From Bythopirellula goksoeyrii (lineage in GTDB: Bacteria; Planctomycetota; Planctomycetia; Pirellulales; Lacipirellulaceae): 64,000 nucleotides of DNA. Location of the stretch: assembly GCF_008065115.1 (NCBI RefSeq), contig NZ_CP042913.1, forward strand, positions 4,003,658 to 4,067,657, written 5' to 3'. The position numbers and the translations under genes were made by a program. Numbering within the stretch: the first letter of the stretch is position 1; every line of letters starts with the position of its first letter. Below are positions 28,057-56,273 of this stretch, piece by piece. The notes beneath the pieces are model-generated. The model was not told where the DNA came from. It did no database searches and saw only the letters and a list, made by a program, of their open reading frames with translations.

Positions 28057-28743
28057 TCAATTGGGTGCAAACTTCCAATCCGATTTCGATAGTTCAGTAA
28101 GGAACTCGCGACCAGCATCCGAGTCTCCTGGATCTAATTGGGGCGGCAGGGCCGTGGCGAGTTGGAGTTTATAAAGCTGCGGCGATGCCGCAAACTCGTA
28201 GCGCGGAGATTCGGAAGCTTCCCAACGATCACCCAGTCCCCAGGCATAATAAATGCGCAATCCTTCGGCTAGGACGTTCTTGGTCGTGAAGTCGAGACTC
28301 CAAAATTCGTCCCTCTGGCCTGCACGCTCCTCAAGTTCCACGCTCCGCCGTGTTCCTTGCTGGTCATAGGCACGGCTTGAAAAACAGATCTCCGGCGTAT
28401 GGACCGCAGTGGGCCCTGGAGGGCCGACAATCACGGCCAGATTCACCACGTGGCCAGTCTCTTGATGGACGTAGCGGCGATTGACATACCCTGCGCACTC
28501 CAACATTGCAACAGAGGACTCTTCCATGGGCATTTCTTCTGCCAACTGCCAGTTCCCGAATTGCTTGGGCATTTTCTCTAGTTGCTGAGCTGCTGCCAAG
28601 AGATCAGGGGGTGGTCCCCAGCGCTGGGAGTAATTTCCGTAGAGCACCCCACCGATGAGTGTTACCCCCAAAGCTACTGCCAGGGCCAGCCACCGTTGGG
28701 CTTGGCCAGAGAAACCTGGTGATTCGTTTGGAATCTTTGTCAT
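28057..28743 (-). CDS. epsI: Exosortase-associated EpsI-family protein
   Basis: This 228-residue protein has an N-terminal membrane anchor (ALAVALGVTLIGGVLYG) and the EpsI fold: PKQFGNWQLAEEMPM, then LECAGYVNRRYVH, VVNLAVIVGPPGPTAVHTPE with the conserved HxPE/CF region ICFSSRAYD. The PTAVHTPEICF block is the hallmark of the family that accompanies exosortases in EPS loci. Its start overlaps the stop of the TPR gene by 4 bp. It is probably a periplasm-facing accessory for polymer or protein export. Confidence 0.87.
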   Translation of the reverse strand: MTKIPNESPGFSGQAQRWLALAVALGVTLIGGVLYGNYSQRWGPPPDLLAAAQQLEKMPKQFGNWQLAEEMPMEESSVAMLECAGYVNRRYVHQETGHVVNLAVIVGPPGPTAVHTPEICFSSRAYDQQGTRRSVELEERAGQRDEFWSLDFTTKNVLAEGLRIYYAWGLGDRWEASESPRYEFAASPQLYKLQLATALPPQLDPGDSDAGREFLTELSKSDWKFAPN

Positions 28744-31700
28744 AGTTGTGCCCCTGTGGAAACCGGTTCTGAGACAAGCGACGTATTGAGCTCCTCGAGA
28801 ATCATGCGATCATCTTCGGTCAGCAGGAATTTCTCGATTCCAAACGCCTGCGCTTCGCTGAGCATGCGTTGGGCATCTTCCTCTCGCCCGGCCAGATGAT
28901 AAGCGGCTGCCAAGTGTAAATAATATCGAGCGTCAGCCACTCCCCCCGCCGTGGCCTCTTCCAAGCTGGCGATTGCCTCATCAGCCTGGCCAACTTTCAG
29001 ATAAATCGTCCCCTGGGTGTCCAGCAAAGAAGCCTGCCGCCCGGCCAAATCGATGGCACGTTGAATCACCTCCAACGCCTCTGACCGCCGGTTGGGCTTT
29101 TCCGCTAAGAGAGTCGCTAGATTGTTCAGGGCCAGACTGTTTTCTGGTGCCAGCTGGACAATGCGGGTGAAGGCCGCAATCGCCTCATCATATTCGCCGT
29201 TACTCGCCAGCCTGACGGCATCTGCCTGCAGGAGCTCGATGTTATCTTGATGATCCCCAAGGGCCAGGCGGAGGGCCTCGTCAGCTTGGGGAAGTTCTGC
29301 TGCAGTGGTTTCGTCCATCGAAGTCATGATATTGGCGAGGGTGGCGGCGACCTCGGACGACATGTTACCTGCTGACAAATCGATACAGACCTGCGCGGCT
29401 TCCGCTCGTTTGTCCTGCTGGAGAAGGGATTGAACGACTAACACATACGCCTTGGGATTGACCTCCATCAAGCGGCGATACCAGGTCTCGGCCTCGGCAT
29501 GGTCGCCCAGCAGGGTGTAAAGCCGGCCGATAGTCAAGTATTGCTGGGGGGAGCTCGAGGCAGCCTCGTCGCGAGTTTGTTGTGCCACAAACCGGTCCAC
29601 GACAGCCTTCGCTTCAGCCGTGTCTCCCTGAGCTTTCATGACCTGAGCCGTCAGGGCCACGATGAGCGTTTCGAGCCCGACATCCCCTTCCAGTTGTAAG
29701 CGACGCAAGTCGATCAGACGCGCCTCGGCGTCTGCGAGAAACTTCGCCTGGAGGCTCTCAGGGGCCACGCTGCCGGTCGATTCTGATGCTTGGGTTGCCT
29801 TGTCTGCTGCGGCTGTCGGTTGAGACTTGTTCACCTGCCGCAACAGAAATTCGATGTAGTTGGAAAGTCGCTCGGCTGAAGGTGGACTGCCCTCCAGCAC
29901 AGCACGAAACTGTTCTTGCGCTAACAAGAGCAGTGACTCCTCTTCGCTCAGTGACGCTTCTTGTTCCAGGATCTGAGCCACTAAGAGGCGACTTAAATCC
30001 GCTTCTTCGCCGGTTGTCGCCGCAATTTGTTTTTCCAAAATCTTCCGCGCTGCCTGGCAGTTGGCGATTCGTTCCGACCGCGTGCGTCCCCGTTGGGCAA
30101 GGAGCATGGCCCGTAACCGGTCATTGGTTTTCGTATTACTGGTAGCAGTCCCTTCGATCGCTTTGAGCAGCTCGTTTGCGCGAGCCCAGTCGGCTGACTC
30201 TCCCGAAGATGCCAGGAGGACCGCAAACTCGCGACGAGCTTCATCGCTTGTTGGATCAAGCTTGAGGACCTGTTCATATTCGCCCTGTGCAGTTCGCGGG
30301 CTGCTTCGTGCCAGCAGTCTCGCGTAGCGCAGACGAATCTCAGCATTGGTGGGATCTGTTTCCAAAGCAAGCAGATACTGTCGGGTGGCGGCCTGCGGAT
30401 CGCCGATTGCTTCCCATCCTTGTGCAGCAAGGTAATGGCGTTCTTGGAGCTGGTTGGACTTGTCGCTAGCCAGCTTCTCCAGGATCTGACGGGCCTCCTC
30501 TACCTGGTTATTCTGGGCGAGGATTGAAACCATTCCCATCCAGACTCGGTAGTCATCCGGCAGGTCTTGGATCGCCTCCCGCAGAACGGACTCTGCTTCA
30601 CTCGGTTGTCCGTACCTTAACAGCAAGTTCGCTAAGTAGAGTCTGCGCGATGCATCCTCAGGGAATAGCTTGACACTTTGCCGGGCAAGATCGAGGGCCT
30701 CATCACTACGATTCTGCTTGACCGCCAGTTCCATGTTCATGGCATTCACAAAAGAGGCCGCCGACTGGTCTGCTGAGAGCATGGCCAGGAAATTCTCTGC
30801 CTCCTGAATCCGATTGAGCTGATACAGATTGGTCACCAGCTGCTGTAAGGTAAAGGCGCGCGTGTCACCGAGGTCGACTGCCAAGCGGTAATCTTCGGCC
30901 GCCTGGAGCGTATCGCCTGTGAGTTCCGCATAGCGAGCGGCTAAGGCCACCACCGGATACCACTTGGGTCGGGTAGCTCGCAGCGAAGCGATTGTCTGCT
31001 TGAGTTCTTGGCGATCTTTCGGAGAGAGCGCTTCGTAATTCTGCAATAGGCGACGGATCTTCAGATACTGCGCGTCAGTGCCCTGATTGGTGAGGCGGGC
31101 CAATTGCTCTTCCCAGACTTGCGCGGTTTCCACCTCCTCAGCAGCCAGCGAGATCTCTGCTCCGAGGGCCAGGAGTGTGGTATCTTCGGGATACTCTTCG
31201 ATCAGTTCTTTCGCATTCTGCCAGGCCTTTTTCAGATCGCCATCTGCCACCATGATCTCTAATCTGCGGCGCAGAAGCGGCAGTCGGTCGATCGGCGAGA
31301 GTTTTTGGGCTGAACTCTCCAGCAAAGCTTCGGCCTCTGAGAACTTTTTCTCCGACGCGAGCAGGAATGCTTCGAGCAAGACGGGTTCCGTTGATGTCTC
31401 CGCCAGCTCGCCGTACCTGGCTAAGGCATTTTGTTGATCTTGTTCAGCACCGAGTTGGTGATAGCGGACGGCCGCATTTCGCCAAAAGAGTTCGTTCTCC
31501 GCAAACTTGTCTTCAGCCTCACGCAGGAGCGCTACGATCGTCCGCGAGTCCGCTCCGCTGGCCTGGAGATAATCAATTTCCGCGAACAACAATTCCCAAC
31601 GCTCCGCTACTAGAGATTTGGCCTTGTCCAAAGCTTCCTGGAACTCAGTCCAATTGCGCTGGGTCGGCGGGCGCTGTAGCTGTAACAGCAGCAGGGCCTG

Positions 31701-33221
31701 CGCTCGCTGTACGAGCAGATTGTCACTCGGACTTGCCAGGCGGAGGAAGCGGTCGATGTGGTCTAAGGCCACCTGAGCATTCCCAGCGCTCAAAGCACTC
31801 TGGGAGGCAGCCTCCACAACCCCGACTTGGTCTGGCAGGACCCGCAAGAGAGAGTCCCAATATTGGGCCGCTTGATCCCGCTGCCCCAAGCGACTGTGAT
31901 GCGCCGCCAAGAGCTGCGCCGCTTCGATCCATTCTGCGGAAGTTTGCCCGGCGGATTCTTCGGTCAGGTAAATGGTCTTAAGCTCGGCAAGGGCCTTGGC
32001 TGGCTCCTCTTGGGCGAGGTCCAAACGGGCCGACAAGAGCCGCAGGCGATTCTCCAATTGATTGCGTCTCTCCGACGATAAGCGGGCCAAAAAAGTCGAA
32101 CTCTCTCTCCTGAGTTGCTTCAGCGTGGCTGCCGCTTGTTCCAGCTGGTTGGTCTGCAGCTGGAGCATGCCCAGTGCCAATCCGAGTTCGAAACTGTTGG
32201 GGGTGGCCTTCATGCCGCCACGTAATAAGTTCACTGCAGCGTCCGTTTTTTCTTGCTGCTGGAGCAGACTTGCCAGTGCCAGGTAGCCCCGCGAATCCTC
32301 GGGGGCGAGCTCAATCACGTGGCGCAGCTGGGCGTCGGCCTCTTCGAGTTGCTCGGGGGAGTTCTCTCCAGCGAGTCTTCTCAGAGCAGAAGCCAGAAGA
32401 CCTTCGACATGCTCTGGATCGAGTTGAAGCGTGGCCTGGAGATCTTCCTCCGCTCCCGGCAGGGAATAGCGCTGCCGGTACTGATACCGGGCCATGCGGG
32501 CTTCGACATCGTCGGATTTGGCTGCGACGAGCTGGTCCATGAGTTTGTCGGCCCGAGTGGCCGGGTCACCCTCTGCCGGTGGGAGCTCTGCCGAATGCGT
32601 CCGGAGGCTGCTAGCGGTTACTGCGATGAGCTCCACGTCCTCAGGAGATTCGTCGGCTGCGGCAAGCAATTTTTGCAGCGATTCGGGAATGGAGAGGCTG
32701 CGATCTACGTCTGCTCGCACGATCTGGGAGATCGCCATGACTTTGCGAGCGCTGCGAGCTGTTTCCGGAGTCCCGTCGAGAAGCTGTTGAGCTTCCTTGT
32801 TGGCTTCTTCCAGGGCTCCAACCTTCAACAGATTCTCAGCGAGCATTTGTCTTAGATCGTCGCGCTCGGGAGCACGTCCCAACACGCGATAAAGTAAGCT
32901 GTTGAGCCTGAACAGGCGGTTCGGATCGGGCTCCCCTTGGGCATAAGCCTGCACCAGTCGGACCAACACCTCGGTATTATCAGGCTCGACTAGCAGGTAG
33001 CGCTGGTAATAGGAGGTCGCCTCATTCCAATCGCCTTCTGCTTCCAATTGCTCGGCACGGGTCAACAGAGCATTGGCCGTCTGGCCGAGACGATACTGAT
33101 ACCAGAAATACCCTGCGACCGCGAGTAAGACGACAACGATCACACTCACCAGTAAGAGGCGCAGATTGACCGTGTAAACACGGTTCTCGGTTCTGGATGG
33201 TGTCGAAACTACTTGAGCCAT
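28740..33221 (-). CDS. Giant membrane-anchored TPR-repeat protein of the exosortase/EPS system
   Basis: This 1,493-residue protein has one N-terminal helix (LLLVSVIVVVLLAVAGYFWY) and then almost continuous 34-residue TPR units with the A/G/Y/A/P pattern: GDWNEATSYYQRYLLVEPDN, AETWYRRLMEVNPKAYVLVV, YDEAIAAFTRIVQLAPENSL and many more. This architecture matches the TPR proteins paired with exosortases and Wzc-like kinases (PrsT/EpsK-type scaffolds). It likely organises the envelope-spanning secretion complex on the periplasmic side. Placement between the kinase and EpsI genes, with a 4-bp overlap to the latter, supports one operon. Confidence 0.85.
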   Translation of the reverse strand: MAQVVSTPSRTENRVYTVNLRLLLVSVIVVVLLAVAGYFWYQYRLGQTANALLTRAEQLEAEGDWNEATSYYQRYLLVEPDNTEVLVRLVQAYAQGEPDPNRLFRLNSLLYRVLGRAPERDDLRQMLAENLLKVGALEEANKEAQQLLDGTPETARSARKVMAISQIVRADVDRSLSIPESLQKLLAAADESPEDVELIAVTASSLRTHSAELPPAEGDPATRADKLMDQLVAAKSDDVEARMARYQYRQRYSLPGAEEDLQATLQLDPEHVEGLLASALRRLAGENSPEQLEEADAQLRHVIELAPEDSRGYLALASLLQQQEKTDAAVNLLRGGMKATPNSFELGLALGMLQLQTNQLEQAAATLKQLRRESSTFLARLSSERRNQLENRLRLLSARLDLAQEEPAKALAELKTIYLTEESAGQTSAEWIEAAQLLAAHHSRLGQRDQAAQYWDSLLRVLPDQVGVVEAASQSALSAGNAQVALDHIDRFLRLASPSDNLLVQRAQALLLLQLQRPPTQRNWTEFQEALDKAKSLVAERWELLFAEIDYLQASGADSRTIVALLREAEDKFAENELFWRNAAVRYHQLGAEQDQQNALARYGELAETSTEPVLLEAFLLASEKKFSEAEALLESSAQKLSPIDRLPLLRRRLEIMVADGDLKKAWQNAKELIEEYPEDTTLLALGAEISLAAEEVETAQVWEEQLARLTNQGTDAQYLKIRRLLQNYEALSPKDRQELKQTIASLRATRPKWYPVVALAARYAELTGDTLQAAEDYRLAVDLGDTRAFTLQQLVTNLYQLNRIQEAENFLAMLSADQSAASFVNAMNMELAVKQNRSDEALDLARQSVKLFPEDASRRLYLANLLLRYGQPSEAESVLREAIQDLPDDYRVWMGMVSILAQNNQVEEARQILEKLASDKSNQLQERHYLAAQGWEAIGDPQAATRQYLLALETDPTNAEIRLRYARLLARSSPRTAQGEYEQVLKLDPTSDEARREFAVLLASSGESADWARANELLKAIEGTATSNTKTNDRLRAMLLAQRGRTRSERIANCQAARKILEKQIAATTGEEADLSRLLVAQILEQEASLSEEESLLLLAQEQFRAVLEGSPPSAERLSNYIEFLLRQVNKSQPTAAADKATQASESTGSVAPESLQAKFLADAEARLIDLRRLQLEGDVGLETLIVALTAQVMKAQGDTAEAKAVVDRFVAQQTRDEAASSSPQQYLTIGRLYTLLGDHAEAETWYRRLMEVNPKAYVLVVQSLLQQDKRAEAAQVCIDLSAGNMSSEVAATLANIMTSMDETTAAELPQADEALRLALGDHQDNIELLQADAVRLASNGEYDEAIAAFTRIVQLAPENSLALNNLATLLAEKPNRRSEALEVIQRAIDLAGRQASLLDTQGTIYLKVGQADEAIASLEEATAGGVADARYYLHLAAAYHLAGREEDAQRMLSEAQAFGIEKFLLTEDDRMILEELNTSLVSEPVSTGAQL

Positions 33222-33296
33222 AATTCAGGTCACCGGGTGGAACCTTCCGAAAAAACGAGTTTGATTATTTTTGTTAGGCAGTGCACTGGAATGTTC

Positions 33297-35567
33297 TTAT
33301 TCGTGTTGCCCATACGACCCGTAGTGGTACACGTAACGATTCACTGAAACTCCGCTCAGGACGACACCGGCGAGGTTGGCACCAGTCGTCTGCAATCGCT
33401 CCACAGCACATCGAACTTGCTTGGCCCGACTGATATCCGCCAGGGAACTAAACAACACCAGATCCGCGGCCTTGGCGTAGATCAAGGAGTCACTTGCCGA
33501 GAGTACGGGCGGGGTATCAATGAGGATCGTATCGAAACTACCACGTAGCTTATCCAGCAGTTTCTCGATCTTGGCTTGGTCGATAAGATGGTGGGGATTG
33601 CCTTTGAGTACTCCTGCGGGAAGTACGTAGGCTTGGGTTTTGCCAACCCGATGGATGGCCTTTTCCAAGGCGACCTCGCCACCGAGTAATTCGACGATTC
33701 CCGGCTGACTGGGCACCTCCAGGAACGAGGAGACATCGGGAGAGCGTAGATCCGCGTCGATTAGCAGTGTCGGCTTCTTGCTCGCTTTGGCGATGCTCAA
33801 CGTTAATGCGGCTGCGAGGCTCGACTTCCCTTCTCCGCTGGCAGCGCTGCAAATCGCAATAATCTTATCGACTCCCGGTTGTCCTACTTGTTCTGTCAGC
33901 ATGAGCTGCGTGCGGAGGCTATCGATCGACTCGGTATAAACAAACATTTGTCGCTGTTGGGGGGCGGCGATCTGGGCCTGCGTAGTAGCCACACGCTGGC
34001 GTGGAAATTGTGCAACTTCACCCAAAAGAGGCAGTGAGGACTCATTCGTGAGTTGCTCAGGCGTGCTGATCCGCTTCGCCAGAAACTCGTAAGCGATGGC
34101 AAGTCCTAAGGGAGTGACCAGCGACACAAGACTGGCAAGCAATAGATATTTGTAGGGGATGGGCTCGATTGCAATATGTGGAGGAGAGGCACTTTGCATG
34201 AGCGTGACGCGTGTCGGTGCCCGTTGTTCAGTCTGCAAAGCCAGTTTTCGGGCCGCGATCAACTCGAAGACGCTCTCTTCACGTTCCAGTTCCGCCTTGG
34301 CAAATTCCAGTTCTGCGCTCTGGGCCCCCCCCGACTTGAGCTCGTTCATCTGTTCTGCGAGCTTGGCTGAGAGCATCTCTCGTTTCTTGCTCAGCAGGCC
34401 TAGCTCTTGCTGTTTGGCTCCCACGAGTGCTTCTTGTTCGGCTTTACGTTCTTCACGACGCAACGCAATCAGCTCCCTCTTGACCAGCTCCTTGAGTTCC
34501 TTTAGTTCTGCCTCGACATTTTTGGCTTGTTCTTGCAGCTGAATGTATTGAGGATCCTCTTCCCAAGTGACATCTTTCTTTAGCCGTGGCTGAGACTTGA
34601 TCTCTGCCATCTGCTGATGGATGAAATCGCCACGTTCCTCCAGGCGTCGTACATCTGCACGGTTCGAGATCTCAAGTTCCAACAATCCGGAGGCAACCGC
34701 TCTGTCCTCGCCGAGCATCGGGGAATTGTTGATCGCCTGCAGTTCCGCTTTAAGGACTTCGAATTCGACATCCGTCTCGGTGAGGCTCTGATAGAGACTC
34801 CCGGCCGGCGAAAAAGCTACGGCGTCGGTGACAACACCTTGACCGAATGGATCTTTACCGGTCAGGTCTTTCGCCAATTCCACGACGCGCTTGCGGAGCT
34901 GATCCACTTTGGTGCCGCGTTCGAGTCTTTCCTTCTCCAAGACTTCAATGACCATTTGGGAGCGCTGCCGTTCTTCACGATTCTGCAGCGCAAGGTATTC
35001 TGCCACCACAACGTTCGCCACGCTGGCCGCATCCTGAGAGGAAGGGCTTACGAAGGAGACCTCGTAGAGTTCCGATTTGCCAATCTGGCGAACCGTCAGT
35101 TGTTTCTGTAGATACTTGAGGGGATCGGGCGACCGTTTGATTTCTGGGATGGAAGCAATCTCAGGGCGACCGAGCACAGGGGTAAGCACGACGGGACCGC
35201 GGAGTAATTCTATCTGCGTTTGGACGTAACGCTCGGAGTCTTTATTGAGTGCCCCTTGCTGAAAAGCAATGAAAGGGGTCTCCGCCTCAATCTTCACTAG
35301 CGCAGAGGCTTCATACTTGGGAACATAAAACATCAAGACTATCGCGCCAGCGCCTGCCGCAAGTATGAGTCCTAGGGGGACCACCCATTTCCACCAACCG
35401 GTGAAGACCCGCCAGACGAAAGCAGGGGTGATTCCTTGCTCATTCGGAGTGGAATTTTGCCGAGCGGCTGCTGGCATAGGTCGACGCAAGGCGTGGGCCA
35501 CGGGAATCCGAGCGGGCAGTCCGCTACCGGTAGATTCATGCTCAGGAGGGTTGGGTGAATTGTTCAT
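33297..35567 (-). CDS. wzc: Polysaccharide co-polymerase fused to a tyrosine autokinase (Wzc/BY-kinase)
   Basis: This 756-residue protein contains in order: a first membrane helix (62-82, VVPLGLILAAGAGAIVLMF), a Wzz chain-length domain, a long coiled coil (200-445), a second helix (472-493) and a cytoplasmic BY-kinase. Kinase motifs are Walker A SAASGEGKSS (574-583), Walker A' LLIDADLRSPD (601-611) and Walker B ILIDTPP (681-687). Four tyrosines near the end (745, 747, 749, 752) form the autophosphorylation tail. It sets polymer length through cycles of phosphorylation. The unusually long coiled coil is typical of exosortase-linked members. Confidence 0.9.
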   Translation of the reverse strand: MNNSPNPPEHESTGSGLPARIPVAHALRRPMPAAARQNSTPNEQGITPAFVWRVFTGWWKWVVPLGLILAAGAGAIVLMFYVPKYEASALVKIEAETPFIAFQQGALNKDSERYVQTQIELLRGPVVLTPVLGRPEIASIPEIKRSPDPLKYLQKQLTVRQIGKSELYEVSFVSPSSQDAASVANVVVAEYLALQNREERQRSQMVIEVLEKERLERGTKVDQLRKRVVELAKDLTGKDPFGQGVVTDAVAFSPAGSLYQSLTETDVEFEVLKAELQAINNSPMLGEDRAVASGLLELEISNRADVRRLEERGDFIHQQMAEIKSQPRLKKDVTWEEDPQYIQLQEQAKNVEAELKELKELVKRELIALRREERKAEQEALVGAKQQELGLLSKKREMLSAKLAEQMNELKSGGAQSAELEFAKAELEREESVFELIAARKLALQTEQRAPTRVTLMQSASPPHIAIEPIPYKYLLLASLVSLVTPLGLAIAYEFLAKRISTPEQLTNESSLPLLGEVAQFPRQRVATTQAQIAAPQQRQMFVYTESIDSLRTQLMLTEQVGQPGVDKIIAICSAASGEGKSSLAAALTLSIAKASKKPTLLIDADLRSPDVSSFLEVPSQPGIVELLGGEVALEKAIHRVGKTQAYVLPAGVLKGNPHHLIDQAKIEKLLDKLRGSFDTILIDTPPVLSASDSLIYAKAADLVLFSSLADISRAKQVRCAVERLQTTGANLAGVVLSGVSVNRYVYHYGSYGQHE

Positions 35568-35640
35568 CTTTCAGTCTCAATCAGCATCAAGTTGCGACTT
35601 CCATGTTTCTAATCTTTTTTTAGAGCCTCTTGCCTAACGT

Positions 35641-36636
35641 CTAATTTGCCGCTGGGGGTGCATTGCCGAAAATCTTACCTGTCGGGCGAAGCTCTTCTAC
35701 TTGGGGAAACAGTCGATCCAAGTAGATCAAGAACAACCACAGTAATACGGCGGCTAAAGGGATCATTACAAAGCCGGCGATGTCATGACTAAACTTCTGT
35801 CCAGCGTCGCTGGATACATGCTGGTAAAGTAACCCTGTCACGACGATCCGCGTGACATTGGCCACAATGGCCACTGGCAGTGTGGCCAACAAGACCAAGG
35901 CTTTTTGCCAATAACTCCAGCGGGAAAACAAGACAAAGGCGAAGGCCAAGGCGAAGATGCCCACAAATATCCGCATCCCCGAACAGGCTTCCTCCACAAA
36001 TAAAGTATGATCGCCCAGCAAGATGACATTCCCCTCAGCAATGGCGGGCTGGCCCAACATCATGAGTACCGCGGTCCCAAGTTTGGTCGCAATCGCCTGG
36101 AGGGGGACCCGCAGCCACCGTTCTGCCGAGAAGGGAATCGGCACCATGAACCACAAAAAAACTAGGGCTGGCCAACTCCATTTCGCCACGGGGGTTCCAT
36201 AAAGGAGCCACACCACGCCGGCCACGGTGAGTGGCAAGGTCCAGCCATCTAAGGGGAGTAGGTAAAACCTGCCGGCGAGCACACGCAAGCCAACAGCCGC
36301 CGCCAGGAGACCTAAGCCCCACCAACTTGCACCGACGTTTTCAGTAGGGAAGGAAGAACGACGACTCCAGAGGAACACCAGGGCAATAGGAATCACCAAA
36401 TAACCATGAGAATAGTCCGGCTGGCTCTCCCATTTATGGACCATTTCAGTCAGTGTCGGCCAGTAGGCCCACACGATGGCGGCCAGTGCTAAAGCGCCAC
36501 TGAGTCCATACCACAGGGGACTGCTTGGCAACGAAGGGGAAGCGCTTGAGAGTGAGCTGTCACTGGGTGCAGCTCTCCCTGAATGGCTGCTTGCCTTCGC
36601 TTTCATTGACAATTTGTCTTGTTTTTTCTTTTTCAT
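35641..36636 (-). CDS. Exosortase (PEP-CTERM sorting transpeptidase)
   Basis: This 331-residue protein has about eight membrane helices after a polar 40-residue N-terminus. The catalytic triad is visible: Cys218 in FVEEACSGMRIF, Arg263 in ANVTRIVVTG and His284 in SHDIAGFVM. The N-terminal signature PDYSHGYLVIPIALVFLW and PLDGWTLPLT are also family hallmarks. It should cleave and anchor proteins with PEP-CTERM signals. Two such proteins are encoded at 43577-44215 and 44618-45370. It heads the minus-strand series exosortase, wzc, TPR, epsI, sugar transferase. The exact exosortase subclass is not determined. Confidence 0.92.
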   Translation of the reverse strand: MKKKKQDKLSMKAKASSHSGRAAPSDSSLSSASPSLPSSPLWYGLSGALALAAIVWAYWPTLTEMVHKWESQPDYSHGYLVIPIALVFLWSRRSSFPTENVGASWWGLGLLAAAVGLRVLAGRFYLLPLDGWTLPLTVAGVVWLLYGTPVAKWSWPALVFLWFMVPIPFSAERWLRVPLQAIATKLGTAVLMMLGQPAIAEGNVILLGDHTLFVEEACSGMRIFVGIFALAFAFVLFSRWSYWQKALVLLATLPVAIVANVTRIVVTGLLYQHVSSDAGQKFSHDIAGFVMIPLAAVLLWLFLIYLDRLFPQVEELRPTGKIFGNAPPAAN

Positions 36637-42729: not shown

Positions 42730-43576
42730 TTTTTTTACCGCGTACAGATGAGCAGAAAAGCGACTCAACCCTCTAGGATGAATGCACCCAAGGGTATTCT
42801 ACCCACATTGGATTTGGAATGCAAGCATCCGAAATTCGCGTTTTTGGTTGACCGTAAAAAGTGTGGCAAACTGTTTAGGACTTTGCTCAAGAGTTTGAAG
42901 TGAGGACATCCAGCCCAATATTTCAGCGAGAGAATAAAGGGGGGGGCTTTGCGGAAGAGGACACTACGACCACAAAGCCCCAAAGCCCGGGAAAATCTGC
43001 GGGCTAGCAGGACACGCCCGAGCTCCTTACCGAGAATACACCAAAATACCAAAAAATCAATAATTCGGCATAGAAAGTGGCGGTACACCGTCTCGGGGGC
43101 AAGATCAACCAAGGATGGCACCCCTACTTGATAGGGTACGTCAATTAGCATGCTCTCGGGCAAGAATAACGACTTGCCATGATGCCAAACGACCAACCGG
43201 AGACCCCAAGAGGAGAATCAGTAGCAGACCGACCAACAGGCATTGCAGGAGTTGTAAAGGGGGTTAATTGTCCGGGGGGCGGGGAGGAACTGTTTCGGGA
43301 TTAGGGGGCATCCCTCGGGTGTTCGTCTTCCAATCCCCGGGGCTTCCCCAATAATAATGAGAAAGTAATTACCCCCACGAATTGGCAAGTTAGCAGAGTG
43401 ACTATGAGGTAAGTCTCTAATTGCAGGTGACTTAGCGATTGCCTGGATTCCAACCGTGGTTCACTGCGGGTTCCCACAAGGGCAACTCATTTCGAAAAAA
43501 ATACTTGTTTCTCGATTCGATGTAGACCACACTATGGGGAATGTTCGACGGCCCCTCAGCAAAGGCTTCTATTATT
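42730..43576. other. Non-coding region before the first PEP-CTERM gene
   Basis: About 850 bp with no gene I can support. It includes G-runs near 42940 and 43260-43320. A minus-strand open frame (42765-43196) has an unusual composition and no domain. The last ~100 bp are presumably the promoter of the LTD/PEP-CTERM gene. Confidence 0.35.
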
Positions 43577-44215
43577 ATGATTCGATACGTTCAGCTTGTT
43601 GCTTTCCTTGTTGTCCTTCTTGTACCCCTCCAATCGCGGGGCTCCATTGTTATCAACGAGATACATGCCGATCCGGCTGCGGATTTGTCCGGTGATGCCA
43701 ATGGGGATGGTGTGAGATCTGCCACCCATGATGAATTTATTGAGCTGTTGAACACGGGTTTAAGCTCCGTAGACATCGGCGGATGGACATTAAGTGACGA
43801 TGATACCAGCAGTGTCTTTTCCTTTCCTTTCGCTACTATGATCGCGCCGGGCGAGTTTGTGGTTTTATTCGGTGGAGGTACACCGACAGGGTTTGGTTCG
43901 ATCCAGGTTTTTACGGATGACGGCTCTATAGGTACTGGCCTGTCAAACTCAGGGGATACGGTACAACTGTTTGATGATTCAAGTACCCCTGTGCTAATTG
44001 CTTCTTACACTTACGGATCGGAGGGAGGTGATGACCAATCACTCACTCGATCCCCTGATGGTACTGGAGGGTTCGTGAAACATAGTACGATTCCACCCGG
44101 CAACCTCTTCTCTCCAGGAACTGCTGCGTCCGCCATAGTTCCCGAATTAACGTCGTTTGCTGTATGGTCTGTGCTCGGACTAGTCACGTACGTCGGCGGT
44201 CGAAGACGTTTGTAG
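43577..44215 (+). CDS. Exported lamin-tail-domain protein with PEP-CTERM sorting signal
   Basis: This is 212 residues from ATG 43577, where the signal peptide starts (IRYVQLVAFLVVLLVPLQSRGS). The mature part is a lamin-tail domain: IVINEIHADPA, DEFIELLNTGLSSVDIGGWT, FATMIAPGEFVVLF. A beta-rich tail follows (QLFDDSSTPVLIASYTYGS). The C-terminus is the sorting signal VPELTSFAVWSVLGLVTYVG, then a G-R-R-R-L end: VPE motif, helix, basic cluster. It is a likely substrate of the exosortase at 35641-36636. Followed by a strong terminator. Confidence 0.85.
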   Translation: MIRYVQLVAFLVVLLVPLQSRGSIVINEIHADPAADLSGDANGDGVRSATHDEFIELLNTGLSSVDIGGWTLSDDDTSSVFSFPFATMIAPGEFVVLFGGGTPTGFGSIQVFTDDGSIGTGLSNSGDTVQLFDDSSTPVLIASYTYGSEGGDDQSLTRSPDGTGGFVKHSTIPPGNLFSPGTAASAIVPELTSFAVWSVLGLVTYVGGRRRL

Positions 44216-44378
44216 TCAAGTTACTCCAGCAACAAAAGAACAATTTGACAAGTCCCGCCAATCTGGCGGGACTTGTTTTTTGGGCGAACTCTGAACCGTC
44301 GCTCACTCTGGAAGCCTGGTGGTCGTTTGCCGAGTAAACCTCCTGTACAATCGATGCTTGTGGCTATGGTGCGGACGA
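44137..44378 (+). repeat. First copy of a ~240-bp direct repeat (sorting signal, terminator and flank)
   Basis: This spans the last ~25 codons of the first PEP-CTERM gene, its terminator and about 100 bp beyond. It is matched by 45290-45533 with scattered substitutions. The non-coding flank (GCGAACTCTGAACCGTCGCT and onward) is more conserved than the coding part. Confidence 0.8.
44249..44281 (+). terminator. Rho-independent terminator after the first PEP-CTERM gene
   Basis: An 11-bp perfect stem CAAGTCCCGCC / GGCGGGACTTG around a 5-base loop is followed by a T-run. Confidence 0.9.
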
Positions 44379-44617
44379 CTGGTTGATGAGGGAATCGATA
44401 GGTCTAGAATCCATACTCTGTTCGCTACCAAAGGGTATGGGTTCCCAGCGGTTCTAGTATCAACGCATTAAGAAGGGAGATCTTTTGCTCCAGATCTTTT
44501 GAGGGAGACACGAATTTTCGACTGCGAAATGCTTGACCATGCCTTCTTCGCTAGTTAGGATGGCCCCAGTTAAACACCTTTGATTAACTCGTACCTAATT
44601 TTACTTCAGGAGGCATG

Positions 44618-45370
44618 ATGGCATTTCGTTCTCAGATCAGTCTAGTTTTACTGTTGGCACTTTCCGCTTCTCAAGCTTGGGCTAGTATTACTATCGACAG
44701 CTATAATTTTGACCTCGCTCAGTTCACAGGAGCTGCGGTCACTTACTCTGAAGGGCCTGGTCATAACGTCACATTCGACGGGAAGCGTTGGGACCAAGCG
44801 GCTGGCGTGGATGGGTTTACCACGGGTGAACTCGCCGCTGTTCAAGCTGGAGGTGATCCAGGTGATCAACTCTCATTCAATAGCACCAACCCCCTCGATT
44901 GGTTCCAATTGACCTACGGTGGTCCCGGGCTGATTATCGGTGGCCCTGGCAATAATACCTTCGTCATCTATGAAATTACCAGTCCTTCTGGGCCTTCGAA
45001 CACACCGACAGGCATTGATCCTGAAGGAACGAATTGGACCATTAGTTTCAATGGCAACACTCCTATCGATGCGGCTTCCGGTGCTACCAAGTGGCTCAAA
45101 TTTGACGACGTGCCTGCTGACGGTGGTTTCGCTGAGAATGTCAATCAGATAGCGTTTGATTTATCGTTGTTTGGTTTCAGCCCCGGAGATGTACTGAGTA
45201 CGGTTCGGATTGAAAACAAGTCAACTGGTCCCTCAGGCGCAACTGATCCAGACTTTATCTTTACTGCCTTGGAGTCAACTCCTGGTGTGGTACCGGAATT
45301 GACCTCGTTTGCTGTCTGGTCAGTGCTCGGTTTGGTCACGTTTGCCGGTAGTCGACGACGGTCTTCTTAA
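44618..45370 (+). CDS. Exported protein with PEP-CTERM sorting signal
   Basis: This is 250 residues from the second of two adjacent ATGs, which has better spacing to AGGAGG. Signal peptide: SLVLLLALSASQAWAS. The mature part is a beta-rich exported domain without clear family (WFQLTYGGPGLIIGGPGNNT, TNWTISFNGNTPID). It ends in VPELTSFAVWSVLGLVTFAG followed by S-R-R-R-S-S, almost identical to the signal of the preceding PEP-CTERM protein although the rest is unrelated. Probably sorted by the same exosortase. Preceded by ~400 non-coding bp and followed by its own terminator. Confidence 0.82.
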   Translation: MAFRSQISLVLLLALSASQAWASITIDSYNFDLAQFTGAAVTYSEGPGHNVTFDGKRWDQAAGVDGFTTGELAAVQAGGDPGDQLSFNSTNPLDWFQLTYGGPGLIIGGPGNNTFVIYEITSPSGPSNTPTGIDPEGTNWTISFNGNTPIDAASGATKWLKFDDVPADGGFAENVNQIAFDLSLFGFSPGDVLSTVRIENKSTGPSGATDPDFIFTALESTPGVVPELTSFAVWSVLGLVTFAGSRRRSS

Positions 45371-46234: not shown

Positions 46235-46654
46235 TTATTCTTTTTCGACGTAGCCAAGTTGCCTAAGTGCCAGCCGGATTCCCAGGTCGGCAATTTCTTG
46301 TTCGTTAGCAGGTTCTCCTACTCTCAATTGCCCATGCCGCTCTTTTCGTTTCTGTCCATCGGCAGCGTCTCGTAAGCTGATACTCGTCGCATCTCTAAGG
46401 CCAATCGTATGCCTCACCCAAATGGGTTTGACACTTGCTACAAAACCAGTTGACTGCTCGATGCTTAGAGAAGCTGAAGCAACGCCTTCGTGCTGCGAGT
46501 TGCCCGCTATTGGATTTTGTAAACTGTTTGGTGAATTAATGAATTTCAAGTGGGAGTCAGAATATGGTGGCTGAGTAGAGTGAGTTGCAATAAGATTCTT
46601 GCGCAATTCTTTAGCAGCAGAGAGTGCCTCGTCCATTGACCGTTTCTGTTTCAT
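46235..46654 (-). CDS. Small ParA-partner protein, family unknown
   Basis: This 139-residue protein has AAGGAGG just upstream of its ATG. It starts 11 bp after the parA stop, so it is co-transcribed. The N-terminus is a charged helix (RSMDEALSAAKELRKNLIAT), the middle is polar, and the C-terminus is helical (GEPANEQEIADLGIRLALRQ). Position and size suggest a DNA-binding or adaptor partner of ParA (ParB/ParG role). No ParB motif is visible, so this rests on context only. Confidence 0.5.
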   Translation of the reverse strand: MKQKRSMDEALSAAKELRKNLIATHSTQPPYSDSHLKFINSPNSLQNPIAGNSQHEGVASASLSIEQSTGFVASVKPIWVRHTIGLRDATSISLRDAADGQKRKERHGQLRVGEPANEQEIADLGIRLALRQLGYVEKE

Positions 46655-46665
46655 TCTGTCCCTCC

Positions 46666-47376
46666 TTAGCTATACGCAGTAGTTGCCAATTTTTGACTAA
46701 GCCGACTGATGGCGGCGATCATGTCGCTCAATAGCTCAGCAAACAGTGAATTCAAATCTTCCTGGGCCGGGGACCGGCCTCCCTGGACAACGACCGAACC
46801 ATTGATTCTGGCTGTTTGGAAAGCAGAACTATCTATCCGAACTTTTTGATTCATGATCTTCAGATTTGGAGTAATCGCATGAATCATGTCCACAATACTT
46901 TGGGGATCGCGTCCAGTACGGGTCCGACCATCAAGACAATTGATAATCACGCGGGCTTGGAGTAAGGGATTCTCTAGCCGGGCTACTTCAATAATCTGCT
47001 CAACGACAGACAGGGGCTCAATCGCATCAAACTCAGGTTTGACTGGAATAAGCACAAAATCGCTGTGTTTCAAGAGTTCAACGTTGGTTTGTGTGGTACT
47101 CTGAAAACCACCCGGTGCATCGGCGACTGTAAACTGAAACTGTTCGGCCAGTTGTGGCAGCAAGTCGCGTAGCTCTGCCGCGTCTGCCGGCTGATAGATG
47201 GGAATCTCTGGTGCCGCTTGCCCCACGCTCGTAGTAAGTGATTTATTGCCATATTCTCCGGCATCCAGGTCAATGGCTGCCACGTTATGGCCTTTTTGGT
47301 GGAGCCAGACACATAGATTGCTGGCGAGGGCTGATTTGGTGACGCCACCCTTAGTGTGTGCGAAGGTAATATTCAT
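46666..47376 (-). CDS. parA: ParA-family partition ATPase
   Basis: This 236-residue deviant Walker ATPase has the P-loop HTKGGVTKSALASNL at residues 7-21 (KGGVTKS), Walker A' AAIDLDAGEYGN near 34-45 and Walker B FTVADAPGGFQS near 80-91. Its short length without an N-terminal HTH is that of type Ib plasmid ParA or orphan ParA proteins. It positions plasmid copies by dynamic binding to the nucleoid. A palindrome cluster lies 60-100 bp upstream. The partner gene follows. Confidence 0.87.
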   Translation of the reverse strand: MNITFAHTKGGVTKSALASNLCVWLHQKGHNVAAIDLDAGEYGNKSLTTSVGQAAPEIPIYQPADAAELRDLLPQLAEQFQFTVADAPGGFQSTTQTNVELLKHSDFVLIPVKPEFDAIEPLSVVEQIIEVARLENPLLQARVIINCLDGRTRTGRDPQSIVDMIHAITPNLKIMNQKVRIDSSAFQTARINGSVVVQGGRSPAQEDLNSLFAELLSDMIAAISRLSQKLATTAYS

Positions 47377-47957: not shown

Positions 47958-49634
47958 TCATTCTTTTCGCCCAGCAGTTTGAGAGAGGGCACGTTTGACT
48001 TCTATGGGAGGTATTTTTCCAAGTAGATCGCGCAGGTCTTCAGCATCCAGTAGATCAAGCTGATGTATTAATGCTTTTGATGATGAGCGTTGTTTGGATT
48101 GGCCATTCGTCGCGCGCTCGGTCTGAACCGCTTTGATGCTTTTTTTCCAGGCAGATTCATGCACATCGAGTGATTTACGATTACGAACAACGACTTCGAT
48201 AAGTTCCGTAAGTGCGTCGGTAAACCTGCGGTCACCGTCATAGCCAAAGATATGTGCGTGTTCGTGAAGATAAACCGCCAATGCCAGTGGAAAATCGGAC
48301 TCGAAAACGCTTTCTGCAAAAAAGAGATCACGGGATTTATACTCGCGGCTTTGTTTGAGCTCCCCCAGGACAACCTCTGTTTTTGCCACAGTATAGTGCG
48401 TACGTTGACTTTCAAAATGAGTGCTGATACTAGGGGAGAGTTCACGCAAAACTTCGGCTAATGCGGCAAGACAATCCCGTTCCACGTCAGTGGGCGCACG
48501 AGAATTCTTGCGGTGGGTATCTTTCCTGGCTCGCTCACGAATTTTACGAAGATGCTTTTCTGCGGAAGTTGCCCCGAGAATCGAAAAATAGGCCGGCAGC
48601 CTCTTCTTGCCCTCCTGCTCCCACTCTTTTTCCAGCCGCCGGTACTCAATGGTGTCGGAGTCATTGTGCGGCTTCGAAGTGGCATAGTATTCGTCAAACA
48701 GCTCATTGTCAGTGGATGGGTACCGTTGTAGGTTTGCCAGAGTGGCCAGTAGAGGAACGCCACGTTCCCAGCGAGCTTTCGTTGCGAGCAGCAGATAGTC
48801 CATTACCTCGGAACGTGCATAACCTAATCCACCGACAAAGCGCCGATAAAACTCATCCATCAGCTTGCCACCAAAGGCCTTGCGATCGCGGTCTTTTTCG
48901 ATGAGTTTTTCGATGTTCTTGTACTGTTTGTTGATGACTAAGACCACAGGAATGTCTTCAATTACCCCCCGGCGAAGATTGCGATAGAATACGTAGCCAT
49001 CTCGTTTTTCTGACTCATAGAGTGCGAAGTCTTCATTATAAGATGTCCAGACACATCTCCCCAATAGTTCGTTTCCTTCGTAGAGGAAGTGAGTCAGACC
49101 TAGTCGCATGGCATCGATAAGTGGCCTTTGACAACCTGAAAGAATCAACCGGGTTCCTGGGATAGATTCCTCGATCTCAAAAAAGTCATAGACCACAGGG
49201 TATAAATTACTGTCTTTCACGGCAGGAGTATCAGCAATACGAAGTACGACTGCACTTTTTTCAGAGACTGCTACAGGAGTTACGTTGTGGTCACGTAGCA
49301 GGCACGTCGCTGCCGCCTTAAATCCTTCGCCGTACTGCCCAACGTCCTCTTCCCCCTTTTCGCTGCCCAAATAGAAGAGGCGTTCTAGTTCGTATGCAGT
49401 GGGAGCGGAAATCACAACAACGGTTCTGTTTTGTAGGGATACTTCAATTTGGTCCACGGCTTCCCGGTTGGCATCGAAGAAATTCTGCAAGATATCCCGG
49501 GCGATGAGATCTTCATCCCAGTTAACTCCCCAGGCTGTCGTAACTGCGCTCTCGACCGAGCGAACATGCTTCGCACGACCCGTAATACCAACCTTACGGA
49601 GAAACCCTGCACTGCCTTTGTCTGATCTTGCCAT
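47958..49634 (-). CDS. GHKL (Hsp90-like) ATPase fused to a C-terminal HExxH zinc-peptidase domain
   Basis: This is 558 residues from ATG 49634; a GTG three codons earlier is also in frame. Residues ~25-170 form a Bergerat-type ATPase: ARDILQNFFDANREAVDQ carries the Mg-binding Asn (N51), and EEDVGQYGEGFKAAAT (95-110) is the G-box/lid glycine motif. A middle region (180-400) is helical and charged. Near the end, LAVYLHEHAHIFGYDGDRRF contains HEHAH (457-461), a HExxH zinc site, with an acidic residue ~20 further (E477 in ALTELIE) as a candidate third ligand. It stands alone on its strand between parA and the replication origin. I know of no named family with this exact pairing. The role may be a stress- or phage-triggered protease. 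Confidence 0.7.
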   Translation of the reverse strand: MARSDKGSAGFLRKVGITGRAKHVRSVESAVTTAWGVNWDEDLIARDILQNFFDANREAVDQIEVSLQNRTVVVISAPTAYELERLFYLGSEKGEEDVGQYGEGFKAAATCLLRDHNVTPVAVSEKSAVVLRIADTPAVKDSNLYPVVYDFFEIEESIPGTRLILSGCQRPLIDAMRLGLTHFLYEGNELLGRCVWTSYNEDFALYESEKRDGYVFYRNLRRGVIEDIPVVLVINKQYKNIEKLIEKDRDRKAFGGKLMDEFYRRFVGGLGYARSEVMDYLLLATKARWERGVPLLATLANLQRYPSTDNELFDEYYATSKPHNDSDTIEYRRLEKEWEQEGKKRLPAYFSILGATSAEKHLRKIRERARKDTHRKNSRAPTDVERDCLAALAEVLRELSPSISTHFESQRTHYTVAKTEVVLGELKQSREYKSRDLFFAESVFESDFPLALAVYLHEHAHIFGYDGDRRFTDALTELIEVVVRNRKSLDVHESAWKKSIKAVQTERATNGQSKQRSSSKALIHQLDLLDAEDLRDLLGKIPPIEVKRALSQTAGRKE

Positions 49635-49643
49635 GTCTGCCAC

Positions 49644-50393: not shown

Positions 50394-51827
50394 ATGGTGA
50401 TGGGAAAGGCAAAACACAAGCAGTCTCACGTGGAAGCGACTACCTCTGGTGTAGATGGCCTGAATCTCGTTGAGTTTCCTCTCTCAGTTCTTTCCACCAC
50501 GGCTCCTAAAGGAGTGAAGACTCTTGAGTTCAACGAAACTAAATGGGTCAACGGTGAGCCGCTCCACCAAAAACTCACCATCACAGGTTCCGACAAATAT
50601 GGCCTACCCACAATTACCCATCATAAGCTTCTTGTTGCTCTTTTGCAGTTATTCAATGAGCGGGGCAACTACGAAAATCCCCGGATCGAGTTCACCAGAT
50701 ATCAACTCTTGAAAAAACTCGGTTGGCCCGATGATGCCCACTATTACCGCCTGGCGAGAGAGTCCCTCAAGATCTGGAAGGGAGTCAACCTGTTCTATGA
50801 AAACGCCTGGTGGGTGGACGGCAAATTCAAAACCAAAGGGTTTTCGCTGATTGACGATTTTGAGTTGTTTGAAAAGAAGAGTCGGACTGGCAGACGAACG
50901 AAGCTTGAGCAGTCCGAAGACCCGTCTTATGTGGTGTTAGGGAGTGTCGTGGTGGAAGAGTTTCGCAAAGAACGCACGAAGGGCCTAGATTACCAGTTTT
51001 ATCTGCGACTCAAGTACCCGGTGTCAAAACAGCTCTATCGCTATCTGGATAAGTGGTTCTGGTATTCCCCTAGATTCAGGCATCCTGACGTATTGGTCTT
51101 TGCTCGCGAGAAAATCGGTCTGAGTCGCAACTACGATGCGGCCAACTTGAAGCGTTTGCTCGACAAAGGGATCAAAGAATTGACTGCTCAAGGCTACTTG
51201 CGTAAAGACGTGTTTTCAAAAAGGTATACCGACACGGGTGGCATCGAACTTAGAAGGAGCGCTACTAAGCCACCTCAGCAGGAAGTAAAGCCAGCGACTT
51301 TTCTCGAAGCAGAACTGCAAAAACGGGGGGTGACTACAGGTAGATTCAAGCCGACTTGTGCCGGCAGTCTGGTGGATTCGTTTCCAGAGCCACTCATCAC
51401 TGAAAAAATAGCGGTCCATGATTGGCTCCTGAAAAACTCGGATCCCAAAAACAAACAGAATCCAGCCGGCTATCTGGTAGATTCTATTCGCTACGGATGG
51501 CCAAATCCTGCCGGGTATAAGTCACAAGAAGAAAGTCAGGCAGAAGCCTTAGCGAGGCAAGGTGCGAAACAAAAGTTTGCTCAGCGACAACGCAAGCAAG
51601 AATTGGCGGAACAGGAACGCCAGCGAGCAGAGGAGGCAGCTTTCCAGGAATTTGTCGCAAAGTTGCGAGCGGAAGGAAACTACGATGATTTTGCCGACCG
51701 GTCTGTTCGCTCTGGACTTTTTAAGCACTATTATGACCAGAGTCTAAGAGATGGGAACTCCGCAGAAGCTCGCAAGTGGCAACTAAGGGCCATGAAAGCT
51801 CGCTGGCACAAGATTCGTGCAGCTTGA
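50394..51827 (+). CDS. repA: Plasmid replication initiator (RPA/RepA family)
   Basis: This 477-residue protein has the RPA-type winged-helix region: RNxxR-like start KTLEFNETKWVNG, IEFTRYQLLKKLGWPDDAHY, RLARESLKIWKGVNLFYENA, GLDYQFYLRLKYPVSKQLYR, and LSRNYDAANLKRLLDKGIKE. It resembles the pfam replication initiator protein A group found on plasmids. The last ~120 residues are a charged helix (KQKFAQRQRKQELAEQERQR) and a small tail domain. It would bind the iterons just upstream and open the origin. A second in-frame ATG lies at 50400. Confidence 0.82.
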   Translation: MVMGKAKHKQSHVEATTSGVDGLNLVEFPLSVLSTTAPKGVKTLEFNETKWVNGEPLHQKLTITGSDKYGLPTITHHKLLVALLQLFNERGNYENPRIEFTRYQLLKKLGWPDDAHYYRLARESLKIWKGVNLFYENAWWVDGKFKTKGFSLIDDFELFEKKSRTGRRTKLEQSEDPSYVVLGSVVVEEFRKERTKGLDYQFYLRLKYPVSKQLYRYLDKWFWYSPRFRHPDVLVFAREKIGLSRNYDAANLKRLLDKGIKELTAQGYLRKDVFSKRYTDTGGIELRRSATKPPQQEVKPATFLEAELQKRGVTTGRFKPTCAGSLVDSFPEPLITEKIAVHDWLLKNSDPKNKQNPAGYLVDSIRYGWPNPAGYKSQEESQAEALARQGAKQKFAQRQRKQELAEQERQRAEEAAFQEFVAKLRAEGNYDDFADRSVRSGLFKHYYDQSLRDGNSAEARKWQLRAMKARWHKIRAA

Positions 51828-55546: not shown

Positions 55547-55945
55547 ATGCCAAGGACGACAATCATTTTTTTCCGAACTGCCGATGGTGAGGTTCCTTTT
55601 TTGACGTGGCTTGATGAGCTTCGCGATACGAACGATCGGGCATTTACCAAGTGCCTCTACATGGTCGATTTGCTGAGGCAGTTTGGCCATGAGCTTCGCA
55701 GGCCACAGGCCGACTCCCTCCGCGATGGGGTGTATGAGTTGCGGACCAAGGTCGGACGAGTGAACTACCGGGTGCTCTACGGTTTCGTAGGAAAGGATGT
55801 GGTTCTCGTCTCTCATGGCATCACGAAAGAGAAAGAAGTTCCTGATAAGGAAATAGACACGGCAGTGGCTCGGCTGGCGTTGTTTGAACAGAACCCAAAG
55901 CGGCACACGGCTGTTGACCAGCAAGCCGAGGATAAGGAGGAATAG
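55547..55945 (+). CDS. HigB/RelE-type toxin (phage Gp49 family)
   Basis: This is 132 residues; the core of the Gp49-like toxin family is IFFRTADGEVPFLTWLDEL, FTKCLYMVDLLRQFGHELRR, DGVYELRTKVGRVNYRVLYG, then FVGKDVVLVSHGITKEKEV with the terminal Lys/Glu-rich helix. Such toxins cleave mRNA at the ribosome. The antitoxin gene follows 4 bp after, in the toxin-first order typical of HigBA. GGAGC lies upstream of the ATG. The tail after residue 115 is longer than usual. Confidence 0.85.
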   Translation: MPRTTIIFFRTADGEVPFLTWLDELRDTNDRAFTKCLYMVDLLRQFGHELRRPQADSLRDGVYELRTKVGRVNYRVLYGFVGKDVVLVSHGITKEKEVPDKEIDTAVARLALFEQNPKRHTAVDQQAEDKEE

Positions 55946-55949
55946 AGGC

Positions 55950-56273
55950 ATGGCAAAAAAAACCAATAAATCGACCGATGGTGTAAGCATTCTCAGAAGT
56001 CGCTACGACATTGATATCAGTTCCGACGAATCGGTTCAGCAGTGGGCCGAACCGTTCCGTGTGGCCCAGCTCCTTTTTGACGCCCGCACGGCGGCGGGCC
56101 TTACGCAAGGCGAGATAGCCGAGAAGGTCGGCACGACTCAGAGCGTGATTTCTCAGCTTGAGTCCGCTGATTACGAAGGGCACTCACTTTCGATGCTTCG
56201 CCGAATTGCGGCGGCTCTTGGCAGTCACGTAGAGATTCGCCTCGTGCCCGGTAGCAAAGAACCTGCGGCCTGA
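55950..56273 (+). CDS. HigA-like XRE antitoxin
   Basis: This is 107 residues from ATG 55950, with AAGGAGG at 55934-55940; an earlier in-frame start lies inside the toxin gene. It has a classic XRE helix-turn-helix near 45-95: LFDARTAAGLTQGEIAEKVG, TTQSVISQLESADYEGHSLS, MLRRIAAALGSHVEIRLVP. It should neutralise the toxin and repress the pair. The module appears intact. Confidence 0.87.
   Translation: MAKKTNKSTDGVSILRSRYDIDISSDESVQQWAEPFRVAQLLFDARTAAGLTQGEIAEKVGTTQSVISQLESADYEGHSLSMLRRIAAALGSHVEIRLVPGSKEPAA

Follow-up and report, generated by a model that had tools for sequence, protein, structure and literature searches.

A zincin domain and a GHKL-type module are joined in a single polypeptide of Bythopirellula goksoeyrii, and, as judged from predicted structures and sequence conservation, this pairing holds as an architecture found repeatedly, in bacterial, archaeal and phage sequences alike. 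The DNA analysed, referred to here as the window, is a stretch of 64,000 nucleotides corresponding to bases 4003658-4067657 of NZ_CP042913.1 (GCF_008065115.1), a single contig of 6,473,141 bases. The gene, which we call GHKL-zincin, lies on the minus strand at positions 47958-49634 and encodes a protein of 558 aa from an ATG start at 49634, with GTG at 49643 as an alternative start. We located QNFFDAN (including N51), GQYGEGFK and HEHAHIFGYD (including E458) in this one chain, which bears out the original prediction that a single protein carries an N box, a GQYGEGFK lid motif and a C-terminal HEHAH. The protein matched no Pfam family, had no notable PADLOC match and, searched as a single sequence, had no match in the PDB. 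AlphaFold modelling with a 43-row family alignment gave a mean pLDDT of 90.1 and a pTM of 0.77.

AlphaFold and VIA structure alignment assigned residues 26-292 (48759-49559, minus strand) to a GHKL (Bergerat) fold with its transducer domain. VIA of residues 28-292 returned MORC2 (Z 11.1), MutL (10.5), GyrB (10.4) and Hsp90 (10.3), and as these scores all fall within 1 unit we counted them as tied. Foldseek ranked TRAP1 first for the window model, where VIA placed Hsp90 level with the three other families. The earlier description as 'Hsp90-type' was thus too specific, and a canonical Hsp90 was rejected because the structural matches tie across GHKL branches; none of the 43 members scanned matched the Pfam HSP90 family. 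In the N box, RDILQNFFDA at residues 46-55 (49470-49499, minus strand), Q50, N51, F52 and D54 were each present in 43/43 rows and the acidic D47 in 41/43. Canonical GHKL proteins have Glu at the position matching D47. The G2 box or ATP-lid motif, GQYGEGFK (residues 99-106; 49317-49340, minus strand), had G99, G102, E103 and G104 in every row, giving GxxGEG in 43/43, and K106 in 42/43. A DRDR sequence at residues 248-251 (48882-48893, minus strand), with R249 and R251 invariant in 43/43 rows, is a candidate for the transducer loop that would reach the nucleotide.

The features of the GHKL superfamily are therefore present as regards the fold with its transducer, an N box with acid and Asn, and GxxGxG, but the Asp of the G1 box is absent. 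This Asp makes the adenine contact in Hsp90 and MutL. The G1-box position reads ISAPTAY in the window protein (residues 75-81; 49392-49412, minus strand), sequences typical of this position across the 43 rows are [GA]Pxx[FY] or GKSTY, and the Asp of DxGxG occurred in 0/43 aligned rows. Since it is missing throughout, we filed the protein as a GHKL-fold protein and not as a proven ATPase. Of the 'ATP-gated' opening proposed originally, the GHKL-type module stands, with ATP as a putative ligand. The same loss means that the ligand of a switch may not be ATP, or that the module may bind no nucleotide. Two members from Myxococcota (L077 and L078), of a more divergent GHKL-HExxH type, end in HELAHE(A/V)GDEHDFGF; their N box has a Glu and their G1 box reads EDD, so that they may connect the family to canonical GHKL proteins.

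Residues 380-512 (48099-48497, minus strand) form a predicted zincin domain, modelled by AlphaFold on its own with a pLDDT of 93.3. Its best VIA match was Wss1 (5xbn; Z 7.4, rmsd 3.1, 101 aligned). The first 11 VIA rows (Z 7.4-5.2; Wss1, BepA, selecase, abylysin, 3c37 and 1oz9) were all zincins, some of them by title and the others by their known identity, and unrelated bromodomains came below them. Foldseek matches to the domain were weak alone, the best being to the metallopeptidase abylysin (E 0.36) and the next to Wss1, and when a profile of the domain was run against the PDB its top match was again Wss1 (E 0.0055). The WLM family (PF08325) gave weak matches below its gathering score in 4/43 members, with a best E of 0.01, and none in the window protein. 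The zinc motif HEHAHIFGYD spans residues 457-466 (48237-48266, minus strand), with HEHAH at codons 457-461 and a conserved acid at 466. H457-H461 fall within a helix at 448-460 in the full model and 448-463 in the domain model. HEHAH is thus placed in the active-site helix of the predicted zincin fold, which removes the structural objection that the original prediction had raised against itself, namely a motif in a non-catalytic helix.

An HExxH arose by chance in 133/5000 shuffles of the window protein, so the motif alone is weak evidence and it is the conservation that carries weight. H457, E458 and H461 occurred together in 34/43 rows, kept across phyla at about 20% identity, and all 34 rows also had an acidic residue (Asp or Glu) at 466 together with a Phe at position 471; the conservation on which the earlier claim of a zinc site depended was thereby found. 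The sequences make D466 the best candidate for a third zinc ligand, and where Wss1 has its third-ligand His the family shows no conserved His. The metzincin motif HExxHxxGxxH/D was rejected, as the conserved acid stands one residue early (HExxHxxGxD).

Relatives with both motifs, a search for which had been proposed with the original prediction, were found across phyla. A genome scan yielded 44 loci from many phyla, and the two modules recurred together down to about 20% identity; a one-off fusion was rejected because the architecture is widely conserved. The 43-row alignment comprised the window protein and 42 of 47 homologue stretches, leaving out fragments, a near copy and a fused pair (L010, L031, L045, L047 and L049). 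L008 was omitted because it is a copy of L007, L042 is without its N-terminus, and L089 was not counted, since its contig is probably that of L022 (27,020 bases). The nine rows without a full HExxH were three truncated or frame-broken genes (L011, L014 and L018), L017, in which the domain is missing, four dead tandem partners, and L044, with H461Y. L017 (9995-11182), from a Hodarchaeota MAG, has no zincin domain and keeps the conserved C-terminal tail, and may be a natural variant or an assembly error. Three close relatives of the window gene, L010, L011 and L018, are split, truncated or frame-broken, in L018 just before HEHAH, reflecting either decay or MAG error.

The spread over genome sets was patchy (2/59, 3/392, 3/294, 27/79 for Gastranaerophilales, 2/146 and 5/146, with L077 and L078 two of the last five). 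The chromosomal copies in 27/79 Gastranaerophilales genomes, together with the Hsp90 family being among the tied structural matches, would suit a general quality-control chaperone-protease that combines an Hsp90-like client clamp with a protease. We consider such a role very unlikely, since the gene is patchy and not core even in Gastranaerophilales, MORC, MutL and GyrB match equally well, and the family extends to phages.

Two modules were found together in 16 pairs from several unrelated lineages, each pair with exactly one complete HExxH. In 10/10 fused two-module ORFs (L045, L051 and L081-L088) the first module had HExxH and the second had lost it, and 6/6 neighbouring pairs (L020, L021, L022, L028, L025 and L044) combined an active with a dead zincin; GHKL motifs were recognisable in both copies of all 16. 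L081-L088 represent all eight genomes of the 79-genome Gastranaerophilales scan with two matches in one ORF, G496 (two contigs) being left out, and the second copy in L036 is cut by a contig end. Several of the fused pairs are close relatives (L084/L087 and L051/L086), so the number of independent events is below 16. The dead zincin state requires at least five changes on a tree of the N-terminal domain, a count that gene conversion in L045 and L051 could inflate. This natural pairing of active and dead copies suggests that the working unit is a dimer in which one active zincin is enough, and fits the dimeric habit of GHKL proteins.

The retention of dead zincins in 16/16 pairs could also be read as showing that the domain is structural or DNA-binding, with proteolysis not the point. 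ArdC provides a parallel, as its E229A variant retains conjugation function according to part of the report on it (PMC7213743). As the protease residue of ArdC is dispensable, ArdC stands as a caution for any protease reading. We nevertheless give a non-proteolytic zincin the lowest probability of the explanations weighed here, in view of the complete HExxH in one copy of every pair and in 34/43 rows at about 20% identity.

The gene was originally placed between partition and replication genes, and its flanks agree with this. Downstream on the same strand lies a ParA-type ATPase gene (46666-47376, minus strand; PF13614 E 2.1e-11, PF01656 E 1.6e-10), followed by a small ORF without a Pfam match (46235-46654, minus strand) whose position makes it a possible ParA partner. 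The divergent neighbour (50394-51827, plus strand) is a replication initiator gene (PF10134, E 8.2e-12). The segment also carries RNase_T-type exonuclease and Prim-Pol genes and a Gp49/RelE-type and HTH gene pair (55547-56273, plus strand) that is probably a toxin-antitoxin module. The earlier description of the segment as plasmid-like is apt for its gene content but not as a separate plasmid; a free plasmid was rejected because the window lies within a single 6.47-Mb contig. Since there are also metabolic genes to the right of the window, where the genes look chromosomal by eye, the segment appears to be plasmid-derived and integrated in the chromosome. The contig holds four PF10134 Rep genes (at 3.79, 4.05, 4.25 and 6.08 Mb), which suggests several integrated plasmid-like elements, and only one GHKL-zincin gene. 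Promoter and terminator scans of the window gave signals at the level of shuffled sequence, and neither a tRNA scan of the window nor an Rfam scan of 38000-64000 found any match.

In the wider clade to which the window gene belongs, a PF10134 Rep gene lies beside or near the GHKL-zincin gene at three loci (window, L002 and L012), ParA accompanies it at three (window, L008 and L009), and in L016 its direct neighbour is an ArdC gene. The same Rep family near the gene in three diverged loci would be expected of a plasmid-maintenance protease that activates, remodels or degrades the adjacent Rep and thereby sets copy number. Rep proteins of other plasmids are acted on by chaperones and proteases, which we counted in favour of such a role. 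It is, however, distinctly unlikely to be the right explanation, as the orientation of the gene relative to rep differs between the window and L002, in most homologue loci no relative of the window Rep was found, and the three other PF10134 genes in the genome are accompanied by no second GHKL-zincin copy. The Gastranaerophilales, cyanobacterial and Myxococcota copies have chromosomal-looking surroundings with no clear mobile genes.

Several individual loci in the wider clade of the window gene contain defence-type genes. In L011 (1990-4734) and L014 (1471-4065), which are near-identical loci, a tyrosine recombinase (by eye), AbiEi and AbiEii lie directly upstream of the GHKL-zincin gene, and in L012 (1557-5538) the PF10134 Rep gene has a class II pAgo gene (PADLOC E 2.8e-218) next to it. 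These neighbours, the RelE-type/HTH pair of the window and the patchy distribution would all be consistent with an abortive-infection or stress effector, in which the GHKL module would sense infection and release the zincin to cut essential host proteins. A precedent is VcSduA, where a GHKL module controls a C-terminal effector in phage defence (PMC12137116, in the part considered). The location in defence islands raised by the original prediction was seen as defence-type neighbours in single loci, but these are anecdotal and vary from locus to locus, and the best PADLOC matches of the 43 members were 0.0014 or weaker, to unrelated models and at chance level. Phages moreover encode the same architecture, and this suits a mobile-element factor no less well than it would an effector of abortive infection in the host. 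Taken together, these points leave the abortive-infection explanation unlikely.

A profile built from two phage relatives identified 18 viral contigs in IMG/VR, 17 of which had a C-terminal HExxH. Among phage records, 2/91 matches to L056 covered at least 80% (L056 itself and Exiguobacterium phage vB_EalM-132), and the others listed matched the GHKL part. The vB_EalM-132 protein ends in HETIHRVTGAND and is flanked by replication genes; the phage copy L109 lies amid replication genes. The neighbours of viral copies (ten chosen proteins) included SprT-like, SNF2, DUF932, GmrSD_N and D12 methylase genes. At G1, DDGPG is retained in two phage relatives, L056 and L053, and the short phage relatives L054, L055, L057 and L058 have no HExxH. 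The phage family phrog_6077 (366 positions) matched 42/43 members, its match to the window protein covering the GHKL part. Phage tblastn with the window protein found no homologue, two viral-contig scans gave nothing, and tblastn of 72,556 plasmid records found none for the window protein or L009 and one short match only for L030.

Judged by its occurrence in phages and beside Rep, ParA, ArdC and recombinase genes, the protein would be a factor that mobile elements use in conflict or for their maintenance. We tentatively favour, as the leading possibility and not as a probable conclusion, a dimeric nucleotide-switched zinc protease of mobile elements that serves as a conflict or early-establishment factor. 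By analogy with GHKL relatives, the GHKL-fold N-terminus and transducer would close as a clamp on nucleotide binding, and closure would join or unlock the Wss1-like zincin domains at the two C-termini. A dimer would probably need no more than one active zincin, as the active/dead natural pairs suggest, and the single gene of the window would give a homodimer. From the genomic context, its most likely job would be the cleavage or removal of proteins standing in the way of the element or of its DNA, like rIIA or ArdC. We counted in favour of this explanation the confident predicted folds, the conservation of HExxH and the acid, the pairs, the phage copies, the Rep/ParA/ArdC neighbours and the patchy spread, and against it the missing G1 Asp, the unconserved third-ligand His of Wss1, the chromosomal-looking copies and the near-absence from plasmid records. 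A bolder and more doubtful possibility is that these proteins belong to a large unnamed superfamily of GHKL-gated zincins of phages, plasmids, bacteria and archaea, acting as dimers that in many lineages are asymmetric, with a dead protease as one protomer. Its members would have given up the standard adenine contact and might sense a non-ATP nucleotide or ligand, such as one whose level rises by synthesis or is run down when a phage infects or a plasmid enters.

The nearest known systems share parts of this design. Vibrio cholerae Shedu, VcSduA, combines GHKL and nuclease domains that are both required for defence, and resembles GHKL-zincin in its N-terminal GHKL, its clamp-like middle domain, its modelling as a dimer and its C-terminal effector on the same chain (PMC12137116, in part). 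It differs in that its effector is a DUF4263 PD-(D/E)xK nuclease, absent from GHKL-zincin, and its GHKL motifs I-IV are canonical, whereas GHKL-zincin is without the G1 Asp (same source, same part). Pfam and PADLOC scans of the 43 members gave no match to DUF4263 (Shedu). T4-type rIIA, described as counter-defence, has an N-terminal GHKL and a variable C-terminus, with no zincin described in the part of that source considered (PMC7824862). It is likewise a phage protein, and RIIA appeared in the Foldseek viral list from rank 10 (E 1.5e-7); however, the RIIA proteins listed are about 600-1050 aa, and the rIIA model phrog_2979 matched 1/43 members, weakly (0.006). Wss1/Spartan-type minigluzincin proteases (PMC4559962) share the zincin fold and an HExxH followed by an F..L helix. 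They differ at the third-ligand His position, which is not conserved in GHKL-zincin, and in the GHKL fusion found here instead. In Wss1 the zincin is fused to SUMO-targeting parts. ArdC and polyvalent MPTases resemble GHKL-zincin as mobile-element zincins fused to another functional domain (PMC5512222 and PMC7213743, each in part), but GHKL-zincins are without the ArdC-N domain, and the Pfam scan of the 43 members found no match to ArdC-N or PF18818.

The portions of the open-licence literature searched describe no GHKL-zincin family. The relevant part of Iyer 2008 (PMC2292703) makes no mention of peptidase, protease, rIIA, plasmid or zincin, that of the DefensePredictor paper (PMC13092281) has a HATPase domain in a figure key only, and that of a conflict-systems paper (PMC7159879) leaves GHKL and Hsp90 unmentioned. 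The separate parts are of known kinds. What is apparently new, as far as we found, is that they are stably combined, that the G1 Asp is lost and that active copies are paired with dead ones. Clamps of the GHKL type power changes in DNA topology, the repair of mismatches and the work of chaperones, and in VcSduA one serves phage defence by way of a nuclease. If a GHKL clamp with a Wss1-like protease as its output is widespread, it would add a new type of effector, phages and plasmids would gain a protein-cleaving tool, and from the recurrent pairing of active with dead copies a concrete prediction follows for the dimer mechanism.

Three further features were noted by eye. An exosortase-type polysaccharide cluster occupies 28057-36636 of the window, and at 43541-45370, beside the plasmid-type genes, two secreted proteins have near-identical PEP-CTERM-like tails. 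The Gastranaerophilales members L033, L039 and L046 are extended at the N-terminus by a long stretch that includes a hydrophobic segment and precedes the GHKL module, and are possibly membrane-anchored.
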